Assembly: GCF_003254525.1 (NCBI RefSeq) | Contig: NZ_QFYS01000002.1 | Location: 62,001 to 126,000 of the forward strand | Direction: 5' to 3' | DNA: 64,000 nucleotides | DNA from: Phenylobacterium kunshanense | GTDB taxonomy: Bacteria > Pseudomonadota > Alphaproteobacteria > Caulobacterales > Caulobacteraceae | In this document: piece after piece, positions 12,275-19,487 of the stretch | Layout: every line of letters begins with the position of its first letter | How positions within the stretch are numbered: position 1 is the stretch's first letter | The notes under the pieces: generated by a model | Databases searched by the model: none | Told to the model about the DNA's origin: nothing | The model's input: only the letters and a program-made list of their open reading frames with translations | Made by a program: the position numbers and the translations under genes

Positions 12275-12277
<3 letters not shown>
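12251..12277 (-). terminator. Hairpin overlapping the histidine kinase stop codon
   Basis: TGACGCC / GGCGTCA (7 bp, plus possible inner GC pairs) overlaps the kinase stop codon at 12275-12277. No T tract follows, so terminator function is uncertain. Confidence 0.35.
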
Positions 12278-14185
<1,908 letters not shown>

Positions 14186-14307
14186 GCCCCCGAGCGATAG
14201 GGGAAGAGTGCTAACGCTTCGCTTCCACCGCAGGATGTGCACGCGGAGGTTACATTAAAACTGTGGTTTCGGCGCCACGCTACAACCGGTCGCAGCAGAA
14301 AATATGG

Positions 14308-14362
14308 TTAACAACACTTCAATGGATTGCGCGCACGTAAACCTTGCATTTACCTTAACCAT
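14308..14362 (+). promoter_or_regulatory. AT-rich promoter region with a TTAACCAT motif
   Basis: The divergent interval between the histidine kinase and the 111-aa gene (14186-14389) is clearly richer in A/T than its surroundings. It contains TTAAC-N6-TCAA near 14308, one mismatch from TTAA-N7-TTAA, and TTAACCAT at 14355-14362. TTAACCAT-type sequences are known CtrA half-sites in Caulobacter. The assignment to CtrA is inference only. Confidence 0.35.
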
Positions 14363-14389
14363 GTCGGGTAACTCAGGGGTGTAGCCCAA

Positions 14390-14725
14390 ATGGAAAAAGT
14401 GTTCGTGGCCCAGCGCGTGGCCAAGAAGCTGTTCGCGACCGAGTCGGCCGTGGACGGCGCGCTTGTCGAAGCTGCCGAGCTGATGAGCGAAATGCTCAAG
14501 GCCCGTCAGGACGTGAATACCTCGCTGGTCTTCGCCGACGACGTCCAGGTGAAGATGATGGAGGCCATGAAGGCCCTCAGCGAAGCGCGGACCGCCATGG
14601 TCGGCGTGCACAACGAGCTGAACGAAGCGAAGCTTCGCCTCGGCATCCGCACCAAGATGGACGCCATGGACAAGCCCGCCGAAGGCGCGGCCCGTGAGCA
14701 GACGACGATGCGGAAGGCCGTCTAG
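14390..14725 (+). CDS. Small helical protein, 111 aa, function unknown
   Basis: The 111-residue protein is almost wholly helical: FVAQRVAKKLFATESAVDGA, then AELMSEMLKARQDVN, then MMEAMKALSEARTAMVGVHN. There is no signal peptide or membrane segment. I do not recognise the family. It is monocistronic-looking, with a private AT-rich promoter region and a hairpin after its end. A cell-cycle or motility link is possible from the TTAACCAT motif but unproven. Confidence 0.7.
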   Translation: MEKVFVAQRVAKKLFATESAVDGALVEAAELMSEMLKARQDVNTSLVFADDVQVKMMEAMKALSEARTAMVGVHNELNEAKLRLGIRTKMDAMDKPAEGAAREQTTMRKAV

Positions 14726-14775
14726 TCGACTTTCTGTCGGCTACTCGACCGATCGTTGCGATAGATTAACTGGTT

Positions 14776-14804
14776 AGGCGCCTCTAATCTGATTAGGGGC
14801 GCTT
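14776..14804 (+). promoter_or_regulatory. 13-bp hairpin masking the RBS of the 14809 gene
   Basis: The two arms 14776-14788 and 14792-14804 form a 13-bp stem with two G-U pairs and a 3-base loop. The only Shine-Dalgarno-like sequence for ATG 14809 (AGGGGCG) lies inside the 3' arm, 4 bases before the start codon. It may terminate transcription of the 111-aa gene, block translation of read-through mRNA, or act as a DNA operator. Confidence 0.55.
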
Positions 14805-14808
14805 AATC

Positions 14809-15258
14809 ATGCCAGACATACCCATCCGGTTCTTGATCAACAGCCTCTCCGTCCTGGGAGCGCTGTTCGCCCTTTGGAAGGGAAGCCAGGCCGAGCGACT
14901 GGCCGCGCTGGTCGTGATCGCGAACGTGGCGGTGGGCCAGCTCGACACCTTCCTGGGCGCGTCCGGCGACAGCGTGCTTCGCCTGGTCAATGACGGCATG
15001 ACGGCGCTGGTGCTCCTTGGGATCACCGTGCGCTATGGCGCCCTCTGGATGGGCGGGGTGATGCTCTTCTACGCCGCGCAGTTCGCCATGCACTCGTACT
15101 ATCTGGTGACCGACCGGCCGACGGGCGACTACCTCAACGCCCTGATCAACAACGTCAATTTCATCGGCATCAACCTGTGCCTGATCATCGGCGCCGCAGT
15201 GGCGTGGCGCCGCCGGGTGCGCACCGCGCGCCGCGCAGCTGAAGCGGCCGCGGCCTGA
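14809..15258 (+). CDS. Four-helix membrane protein, first of a paralogous pair
   Basis: The 149-residue protein is largely hydrophobic with about four membrane helices. Key segments shared with the next gene are LWKGSQAERLAAL, NDGMTALVLLGITVRYGALW, FYAAQFAMHSYYLV and LNALINNVNFIG. It ends in an Arg/Ala-rich cytosolic tail. No known transporter or enzyme motif is recognised. Start 14809 is fixed by alignment to the paralogue. The RBS lies within a strong hairpin. Confidence 0.78.
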   Translation: MPDIPIRFLINSLSVLGALFALWKGSQAERLAALVVIANVAVGQLDTFLGASGDSVLRLVNDGMTALVLLGITVRYGALWMGGVMLFYAAQFAMHSYYLVTDRPTGDYLNALINNVNFIGINLCLIIGAAVAWRRRVRTARRAAEAAAA

Positions 15259-15289
15259 TCTGGCTCCCCAGTTCCGGCCTCCCACACTC

Positions 15290-15727
15290 ATGCCCACCTC
15301 GCTCCTGGTCCTGGCCTTGACGGCAGCCTCCGCCGTCGCCCTCGGCTTTGCGTTCTGGAAGGGAGGGCCTGCGGAGCGATGGGCGGCCGCCTGCGTCGCC
15401 GTGAACATGCTGGCCGCCATTCTGCTGGTGGAAGCGCTTGGCGGCGTGGACGGCATGATCCGCTTCGCCAACGATGGGCTTACCGCCCTGGCCCTGCTGG
15501 CGGTCACCGTCCGCTACGCCGCCCCGTGGATGATCGGCGTCATGTTCTTCTACGCCGTCCAGTTTGCGATGCACGCCTACTACATGGTCATGGGCCGCGA
15601 CGACTCCGACTATCTGCACGCCCTCATCAACAACGTCGACTTCGCGGGCGTGATCGCCTGCCTCGTCGTGGGCACGGCGGTGGCCTGGCGAGGTCGGACG
15701 AAGGTCGCCCAGCCCTCCGCGACGTAG
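15290..15727 (+). CDS. Four-helix membrane protein, second of a paralogous pair
   Basis: This 145-residue protein is a tandem paralogue of the preceding gene, 31 bases downstream. Conserved positions include FWKGGPAERWAA, NDGLTALALLAVTVRYAAPW, FYAVQFAMHAYYMV, and LHALINNVDFAGV followed by a basic loop. The two probably arose by local duplication and may form a heteromer; this is inference. No function is known to me. Confidence 0.78.
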   Translation: MPTSLLVLALTAASAVALGFAFWKGGPAERWAAACVAVNMLAAILLVEALGGVDGMIRFANDGLTALALLAVTVRYAAPWMIGVMFFYAVQFAMHAYYMVMGRDDSDYLHALINNVDFAGVIACLVVGTAVAWRGRTKVAQPSAT

Positions 15728-15800
15728 CGCCGCTGTCGCCCCTTCCAGAAAACTTTCGCTTGCGCTGAAGCTGGAACGCTGGCTTTTGGCCGGCGGGCCA

Positions 15801-15839
15801 CGCCCCCCCAACGGGGCGCTGCCCATCTGCAAGGATGGG
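15801..15839 (+). ncRNA. Structured serC leader (candidate serC RNA motif)
   Basis: Two hairpins lie between the upstream gene and serC. The first pairs CGCCCC (15801-15806) with GGGGCG (15813-15818). The second pairs CCCATC (15822-15827) with GATGGG (15834-15839) around a 6-base loop, and its 3' arm contains part of the serC Shine-Dalgarno sequence (GGGAGA). A serC RNA motif upstream of alphaproteobacterial serC has been described; whether this sequence matches its covariance model was not tested. Confidence 0.5.
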
Positions 15840-15849
15840 AGACATCGCT

Positions 15850-17034
15850 ATGACTACCCCCGCTACCCTCAATGGGGCGAAGCCGGCCATGCGCCCGGCG
15901 CGACCCGAATTCTCTTCCGGCCCGTGCGCCAAGCGCCCCGGATGGACCCCCGAAAATCTCAGCAACGCCGTCCTCGGCCGCTCGCACCGCTCCAAGCTGG
16001 GCAAGGCGCGCCTGAAGGAAGCGATCGACCGCACCCGCGAGGTGCTGCAGGTCCCCGACGACTTCCTCGTCGGCATCGTCGCCGGTTCCGACACCGGCGC
16101 GGTAGAAATGGCCCTGTGGTCAATGCTGGGCCCCAAGCCCGTGCAGCTGCTGGCCTTCGAGAGCTTCGGCAAGGACTGGGTGACCGACGTCACCAAGCAG
16201 CTGAAGATTCCCGCCGAGGTGCTGGATGCGCCCTACGGCAAGCTTCCCGACCTGACCAAGGTCCGCAAGGACGCCGACCTGGTCTTCACCTGGAACGGCA
16301 CCACCTCGGGCGTGCGCGTCCCGAATGCCGACTTCATCGCCGCCGACCGCGAGGGCATCACGATCTGCGACGCCACCAGCGCGGCCTTCGCGCAGGACCT
16401 CGACTGGACCAAGCTCGATGTCGTGACCTTCTCCTGGCAGAAGGCCCTCGGCGGCGAGGGCGGCCATGGCGTCCTGGTCCTGGGCCCCCGCGCCGTTGAG
16501 CGGCTCGAGAGCTACACGCCGGCCTGGCCGATGCCGAAGCTGTTCCGCATGACCAAGGCCGGCAAGCTCAATCGCGAGATCTTCGACGGCGCGACCATCA
16601 ACACGCCCTCGATGCTCTGCGTGGAGGACGCCATCGACGCCCTGAAGTGGGCCGAGGGCATCGGCGGCCTGACCGAGATGCAGCGCCGCGCGGACGCCAA
16701 TCTCGCGATCCTCGCCGACTGGGTCGCCAAGACCCCGTGGGTCGAGTTCCTGGCCGAAGACCCCGCCGCCCGCTCGAACACTTCGGTCTGCCTCAAAGTG
16801 GTCGATCCGCGCGTCACTGGCCTCGCCGACGACGCCCAGGCCGACTTCGCGAAGAAGCTGGCCTCGCTGCTGGAGAAGGAAGGCGTGGCCCTCGACATCG
16901 GCGGCTACCGCGACGCCCCTCCGGGCCTGCGCATCTGGTGCGGCGCGACCGTTGAGACCTCCGATCTCGACGCCCTGACGCCCTGGCTCGACTGGGCCTT
17001 CGCGTCCGTCGCCGCCGACCTCGCCGCCGCCTAG
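15850..17034 (+). CDS. serC: Phosphoserine aminotransferase
   Basis: SerC transfers an amino group from glutamate to 3-phosphohydroxypyruvate in serine synthesis. The 394-residue length fits the alphaproteobacterial type. Seen are [20 protein letters not shown] at the N-terminus, [29 protein letters not shown], and the PLP-lysine segment [20 protein letters not shown]. Start 15850 follows GGGAGA; an in-frame ATG at 15835 would fall inside the leader hairpin. It is followed by serA, the preceding enzyme of the pathway. Confidence 0.95.
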
Positions 17035-18684: not shown

Positions 18685-18749
18685 CCGACTGGCCCCTTTG
18701 CCGGCCCGGCTTCGGACCCTACCTCTGGGTTCGGAGCCGGGAGGGGCGC

Positions 18750-19487
18750 ATGAAGATCGTCGGCAGCTACGTCAGTCCGTATGTCCGCAAGGTCCTGGCC
18801 TGCCTGAATCTCAAGGGTCTGGCCTACGAGATCGACCCGATCACGCCCTTCTTCGGCGGCGACGACTTTGAACGGATCAGTCCGCTGCGCCGCATCCCCG
18901 TGCTGCTCGACGGGGACTTCGCGCTCTGCGACTCCTCGGTGATCTGCCAGTACCTTGAGGAGGCCTACCTCGGCCATCCGCTGTTCCCCGCCGACCCGAA
19001 GGACCGCGCCTGGGCGCGCTGGCTGGAGGAGTTCGCCGACACCCGCATGGGCGACGTCTTCATCTGGGGCCTGTTCTACCAGAAGGCTGTCCACCCCGTG
19101 GTCTGGGGCGAGCCGGGCGACGCCGCCCGCGTCGAGAAAACCCTCATCGAGGACGCCCCCAGGGTGCTGGACTATCTGGAGGGCCAGCTTCCCGGAGAAG
19201 GGTTCCTGTTCGGCGACATCGGCCTTGCCGACATCTCCATCGCCAGCTTTTTCCGCAATGCGGCCTACGCCGGCTTCGCGATCGACCCTGTCCGCTGGCC
19301 GAAGACCGCCGCCCACGTGGAGCGCACGCTGGGCCACGCCTGCCTCGCCGACCTGCTGCCGTTCGAGGACGCCCAGCGCAGCGTGGCGCCCGCCGGCCGC
19401 CGTGCGGCCCTGCAGGCGCTGGGCGCGCCACTGGTCGCGGAAAGCCTCGGCACGCGCGACCCGCGCAAGGGCGTGATGACCCTCTAG
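18750..19487 (+). CDS. Glutathione S-transferase family protein
   Basis: The 245-residue protein has a thioredoxin-like N-terminal domain (KIVGSYVSPYVRKVLACLNL, RRIPVLLDGDFALCDSSVI with the cis-Pro and the ES/SS-type glutathione contact) and an all-helical C-terminal domain (FGDIGLADISIASFFRNA). Tyr or Ser near residue 9 would be the activating residue. Substrate unknown. It follows serA after about 65 bases and has its own RBS (GGGAGGGG). Confidence 0.92.
   Translation: MKIVGSYVSPYVRKVLACLNLKGLAYEIDPITPFFGGDDFERISPLRRIPVLLDGDFALCDSSVICQYLEEAYLGHPLFPADPKDRAWARWLEEFADTRMGDVFIWGLFYQKAVHPVVWGEPGDAARVEKTLIEDAPRVLDYLEGQLPGEGFLFGDIGLADISIASFFRNAAYAGFAIDPVRWPKTAAHVERTLGHACLADLLPFEDAQRSVAPAGRRAALQALGAPLVAESLGTRDPRKGVMTL

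Follow-up and report, generated by a model that had tools for sequence, protein, structure and literature searches.

The question raised by this locus is what a very stable hairpin is doing directly against the start codon of a membrane-protein gene; namely, whether it acts as RNA to hold back translation, or whether it belongs to transcription, to message stability, to temperature sensing or to the binding of a DNA regulator. The locus lies in a stretch of 64,000 nucleotides from Phenylobacterium kunshanense (here, the window), and its features are collected in Table 1.

Identity and distribution of the locus

The gene that follows the hairpin stands 3' of a gene for a small helical protein, with a divergent hybrid histidine kinase beyond. 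From gene order, protein kind and family restriction, the kinase, the helical protein and the membrane protein appear to match hmrA, hmrB and hmrC of Caulobacter crescentus (CCNA_03326, CCNA_03325 and CCNA_03324; PMC11481889). As far as the available text of that paper describes it, hmrABC is arranged in the same way (a divergent hybrid kinase, then a small helical protein and a membrane protein with several helices) and occurs in Caulobacteraceae only; the window differs in having two hmrC copies. This answers the initial annotation, which gave the tandem proteins no known function. Its description of the two as paralogues holds (49% identity to each other), but the first, called a four-helix protein there, is predicted to have five helices (AlphaFold2, mean pLDDT 87). 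No Pfam or NCBIfam family scored above its cut-off in the hmrB homologue or in either hmrC homologue, and a comparison of the first hmrC homologue with the PDB by fold gave no match at E ≤ 0.001. The hmrB stop codon ends 83 nt before ATG 14809. The second hmrC copy (ATG 15290) starts 31 nt after the end of the first, has neither a hairpin nor an evident Shine–Dalgarno (SD) sequence, and is perhaps translated by coupling. Loci L058 and L011, as well as some relatives with smaller genomes, likewise have tandem hmrC copies.

In C. crescentus, the hmr pathway decides between motile and attached life, with HmrC as the proposed copper and temperature sensor upstream of HmrA, and HmrB as a proposed atypical phosphotransfer protein; according to the available text, the effect of HmrC and HmrA on holdfast and motility is shown for this species only (PMC11481889). 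The same text reports that hmrC alone among the hmr genes is consistently raised by copper and that the biofilm phenotype of hmr mutants depends on temperature, and it cites others for the action of UzcR at the hmrC promoter, which gives hmrC a regulation of its own, and for a rise of hmrC RNA in cold shock (PMC11481889).

A search with a single sequence found matches in 52 of 100 genomes, all within the 60 from the window's genus and none in the 40 from other families. An hmrC profile matched in 207 of the 249 family genomes, covering 19 of 22 genera; in an order-wide draw the count was 31 of 150, comprising 30 genomes of the window's family and 1 weak match from another. Relatives with names are Phenylobacterium, Caulobacter and other Caulobacteraceae, and the order hmrA, hmrB, hmrC, serC, serA is repeated in most loci with enough flank. 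By these searches, the hmr cluster appears to be restricted to Caulobacteraceae. A viral origin was considered and rejected, no viral contig having a relative.

Table 1 Features of the hmr locus in the window
Feature	Position	Strand	Basis and remarks
hmrA homologue, hybrid histidine kinase (HAMP, HisKA, HATPase, receiver)	12275..14242	−	Pfam; conserved neighbour; divergent from hmrB; PMC11481889 (available text)
hmrB homologue, 111-aa helical protein	14390..14725	+	Conserved neighbour; PMC11481889 (available text)
Conserved block TTGCGATAGATTAAC	14756..14770	+	Precedes the stem; TTGC-N6-TTAA, with TTAA unchanged in all 51 aligned sequences; single exact match in the genome
5' arm of hairpin	14771..14788	+	Pyrimidine-rich; fold, covariation
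Hairpin loop CUG	14789..14791	+	Fold; loops of relatives 3–8 nt, mostly 4
3' arm of hairpin	14792..14809	+	Carries SD-like UAGGGGC; pairs the A of the start codon
hmrC homologue, copy 1, 149 aa, five predicted helices	14809..15258	+	Structure prediction; PMC11481889 (available text)
hmrC homologue, tandem copy 2, 145 aa	15290..15727	+	Lacks such a hairpin

A hairpin at the hmrC start codon

Folding of 14770–14830 as RNA gives a stem of 18 pairs, 14771–14788 with 14792–14809, closed by a 3-nt loop (−27.8 kcal/mol, z = −4.2; as low in 0 of 200 shuffles). G–U pairs are among its pairs. The stem of 13 bp ending 4 bases before the ATG that was first described is present, but it is only the core: further pairs on the outside extend it as far as the A of ATG 14809, which forms the last pair. 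When the best stem abutting each ATG was scored on both strands of the window, ATG 14809 ranked first of 1,474 (score 38.5), and the runner-up, ATG 18750 (38.0), belongs to a separate hairpin ahead of the gene after serA. The stem core occurs once within the window. As the initial annotation had it, the stem holds the only SD-like sequence: the best such stretch, UAGGGGC, lies wholly within the 3' arm, with a duplex energy of −5.6 kcal/mol against the anti-SD sequence. An inverted-repeat search did not list the hairpin, probably because of its G–U pairs, and an Rfam scan of 2.5 kb gave it no match up to E = 5; only the serC leader reached its gathering score.

Conservation and covariation of the stem

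We inspected the upstream regions of 74 distinct rows and 40 further loci; 34 of the latter were scored with the 74, giving 108 rows. The six loci kept out of scoring had an ambiguous start or were not the main hmrC (a strong stem is seen in L158, L159, L167 and L178 and none in L156; the sixth is L172). Start codons of the second row set are those nearest to the profile start, some being GTG or TTG. If a hairpin is taken to be any stem that has 11 or more standard pairs and ends, on its 3' side, at −3 to +7 nt relative to the start codon, 102 of the 108 hmrC rows carry one (median −25.45 kcal/mol, range −17.6 to −32.5 kcal/mol), and the stems are nearly perfect. Lack of conservation of the stem, which by the initial annotation would have refuted the masking, is excluded. 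The hairpin is present in 13 genera, over protein identities that fall to about 30%, with nearly complete turnover of sequence: pairing is retained in stems as different as GCGCCTCTAAT/ATTAGGGGCGC, GCTGCACCCCTTAG/CTAAGGGGTGCAGC, GGGGCTCTTCTC/GAGAGGAGCCCC and ATCGCCCCCATGCT/GGCATGGGGGCGAT. An SD-like duplex of −4 kcal/mol or lower is found in 94 of the 102 hairpin rows, and the SD-like stretch lies at least 80% inside the 3' arm in 88 of them; it is poor in the Caulobacter rows L091–L094, L181, L182 and L185.

A qualifying stem is absent from L070, which is a second tandem copy, from L086, from L089 and L191 (one genome) and from L090; L086, L089 and L090 are perhaps one clade after loss of the element. 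In L165 a larger hairpin ends ahead of a TTG start, and L022/L084, at a contig end, has neither an ATG nor a hairpin at the expected start. A further 20 loci comprise Caulobacter paralogues, smaller-genome genera and one other-family locus; in 16 of the 20, the start region of the first copy, a zone wider than that of the ATG ranking and without a control of its own, holds a stem scoring at least 30 (not so in L208, L209, L211 and L213). In two of these 16, L206 and L221, the stem does not abut the start. An hmrB-like ORF is found in 16 of these 20 loci, and three tandem second copies among them have no strong stem, as in the window. Paralogous hmrB–hmrC modules with a hairpin at the hmrC start occur in Caulobacter-like genomes (L204, at G144:C1:3463300-3464300, L205 and L210).

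A covariance model of the element matched 97 of the 249 family genomes, spread over 4 genera, mostly at hmrC by position; it is adapted to stems of the Phenylobacterium and Caulobacter type and misses other genera. At least 2 of the 97 (G168 and G286) match outside hmrC, as do second matches in G172 and G177 (E = 0.004–0.06); these are likely to be chance, the G168 match being a terminator-like hairpin ahead of an unrelated ORF. Several further weak matches are the same palindrome on the opposite strand.

To count covariation, 51 of the 69 distinct sequences were aligned by sequence and not fitted to structure. The 18 sequences left out are mostly near-duplicates and include the stemless L086 and L089, so that the pairing percentages describe hairpin-bearing sequences. 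Compensatory changes occur at 13 of 15 pairs; 95.3% of pair cells hold, whereas shuffles give 75.1% and slid versions never more than 50.2%, and double-changed cells number 145, compared with 39.6 (sd 4.9) in shuffles. These counts are not numbers of independent events, since the rows are related; the replacement of entire stems from one genus to another carries more weight. The SD of hmrC is paired within this covarying structure.

Other roles for the hairpin

The alternative that fares best, although we consider it improbable, is an intrinsic terminator or attenuator that closes hmrB transcripts ahead of hmrC. The initial annotation had offered it, and the location between hmrB and hmrC, the T-runs of 4–6 that follow the stem in 8 of 102 rows and the paralogue L204, which resembles a full terminator ahead of a GTG, would all suit it. 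However, the other 94 rows have no such T-run, a terminator scan of 14300–15900 finds none (shuffles average 1.0), and neither start-codon contact nor an SD-bearing 3' arm is a feature of terminators. Slightly less probable again is a structure that stabilizes or processes the mRNA at the hmrC 5' end and leaves ribosomes not directly affected. Reading TTTAA(C/T) as the −10 would put the transcript start roughly where the core stem has its base, as this proposal would have it; it has no need, however, of constant start-codon contact or of an SD-like 3' arm.

An SD-like stretch in the 3' arm of a start-codon hairpin is the arrangement of the ROSE and fourU RNA thermometers. The hmrC hairpin shares this placement with them but is far more stable, with a nearly perfect stem and no predicted melting in the physiological range. 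Setting of the HmrC level by melting of the stem, the thermometer-like switch of the initial annotation, would agree with the sequestered SD and, from the available text of PMC11481889, with the temperature-dependent biofilm phenotype of hmr mutants, the proposed role of HmrC as a temperature sensor and the rise of hmrC RNA in cold shock. Against this, induction by cold has the wrong sign for melting, the stems are nearly perfect, in the energy range given above, and little opening is predicted: with folding at 10–60 °C, the SD opening of the window hairpin is put at 0.0003 for 30 °C and 0.0027 for 60 °C, and at 42 °C the opening is 0.0007 for the window and at most 0.010 in the ten hairpins tested. 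A larger run of 102 hairpins gave an opening of 0.20 in three (L042, L155 and L181) for the 5-mer chosen there. Since predicted opening is near or below 1% at 42 °C, passive melting is disfavoured and a thermometer seems very unlikely.

Equally hard to credit is the last of the initial suggestions, a DNA palindrome that serves as the operator of a dimeric regulator and overlaps the leader by chance: the inverted repeat is near-perfect, the conserved TTGC-N6-TTAA block adjoins it and UzcR control of hmrC means that a regulator binds nearby (PMC11481889, available text), but the nine inner pairs (459 cells) comprise 425 Watson–Crick, 31 wobble and only 3 A–C combinations, the 3' arm is the richer in G in 99 of 102 rows (poorer in 2), the loop varies from 3 to 8 nt, the hairpin keeps a fixed place by the start codon, and the letters of the half-sites differ wholly between genera with pairing retained. 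The excess of G–U over A–C and the G-rich 3' arm indicate RNA rather than a DNA operator.

A probable lock on hmrC translation

The reading that we favour, with a probability of roughly 0.6, is that the hairpin is a cis-acting RNA lock on hmrC translation, which perhaps silences read-through out of hmrB. The first proposal of a masked ribosome-binding site gains support from conservation, covariation, G–U pairs and strand asymmetry, and we infer that the hairpin blocks ribosomes. A transcript with both arms would have its SD-like stretch paired, together with the start codon's first base, so that translation of hmrC, and by coupling that of the second copy, would be held very low. A hairpin this stable would silence a gene that is reported to be costly to lose, and relief must therefore exist.

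We suggest that the lock acts on read-through RNA out of hmrB, and that the stress-induced promoter of hmrC itself would produce transcripts starting inside the hairpin, with too little of the 5' arm left to close it. Predicted SD opening at 30 °C is 0.000 for a 5' end at 14777, 0.083 at 14783 and 0.256 at 14792. The attraction of a read-through lock is that a shortened 5' end opens the SD, that hmrB lies directly upstream and that hmrC has its own stress promoter. Relief by a start inside the hairpin is nevertheless held with less confidence than the lock; alternatively, a helicase, an RNase or another factor may open the hairpin. The most specific version, with the −10 of the stress promoter in or at the 5' arm, hmrB–hmrC read-through RNA silent for HmrC, and translation of UzcR- or cold-induced transcripts, which begin within the stem, is a tentative one, to which we give well under even odds.

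A precedent for such logic exists in the IS10 transposase gene and in gene e of phage T4, in which a hairpin formed only in long transcripts hides the start site and the gene's own transcripts start inside it. The hmrC gene differs in that it is not a mobile element, and the internal start is here only proposed. A literature search on fold-back or read-through silencing found only loosely related papers.

The placement of a promoter differs among rows. Scored with a −10 matrix, many Phenylobacterium rows have their best hexamer (TCTAAT) within the 5' arm, most Caulobacter rows have theirs (TTTAAT) at the base of the stem, and in other rows it falls well upstream; in L171, from another genus, TATAAT overlaps the stem base. 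A consensus promoter search did not find a standard promoter. Support for the read-through idea is uneven among the rows for this reason. Because of this placement and the result of the consensus search, we consider the lock itself likely and are less sure how it opens. The main texts of open-licence papers yielded no published hmrC transcription start; start-site data sets have already been published for the model organism C. crescentus. The block that precedes the stem is a putative promoter or regulator site, the guess of a regulator resting on its one-turn spacing. Searched as a regulon motif, TTGCNATAGNTTAAC matches the genome exactly at one place; allowing up to two mismatches gives ten matches, compared with three for the reversed control. 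Ahead of hmrB, 14340–14390 holds TTAACCATG, which resembles a CtrA half-site.

If the read-through lock is true, the amount of HmrC would reflect nothing but firing of the stress promoter, a logic that the entire family would have preserved by compensatory evolution. HmrC is the proposed entry to a pathway in which copper and temperature bear on the balance between swimming and attached Caulobacter cells; the start-codon hairpin would be a layer of control absent from the published hmr model, and it could explain the uncoupling of hmrC from hmrB.

The locus is known, and the hairpin is unreported in the literature searched. In the available text of PMC11481889 no RNA hairpin is placed ahead of hmrC, both mentions of 'hairpin' referring to the HmrB protein, and no paper naming the hmrC hairpin was found among the main texts of the open-licence literature. 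What makes it unusual among leader hairpins that hide an SD is how stable it is, that it touches the start codon and how far its sequence has turned over.

Neighbouring RNA elements

The gene row contains two leader RNAs, the hmrC hairpin and the serC leader RNA (RF00517; 15791–15843, 58.7 bits), which lies ahead of serC at 15850 and recurs in relatives. The latter is likewise a conserved leader RNA, 1 kb downstream, and differs from the hmrC hairpin in sequence, position and gene. In L086, L089 and L090, hmrC loci without the hairpin, serC lies about 1 kb farther off. At 18700–18750, a strong stem stands right before ATG 18750, with a purine-rich AGGGG just outside the stem; the gene that starts there, after serA, is glutathione-S-transferase-like (named by eye).
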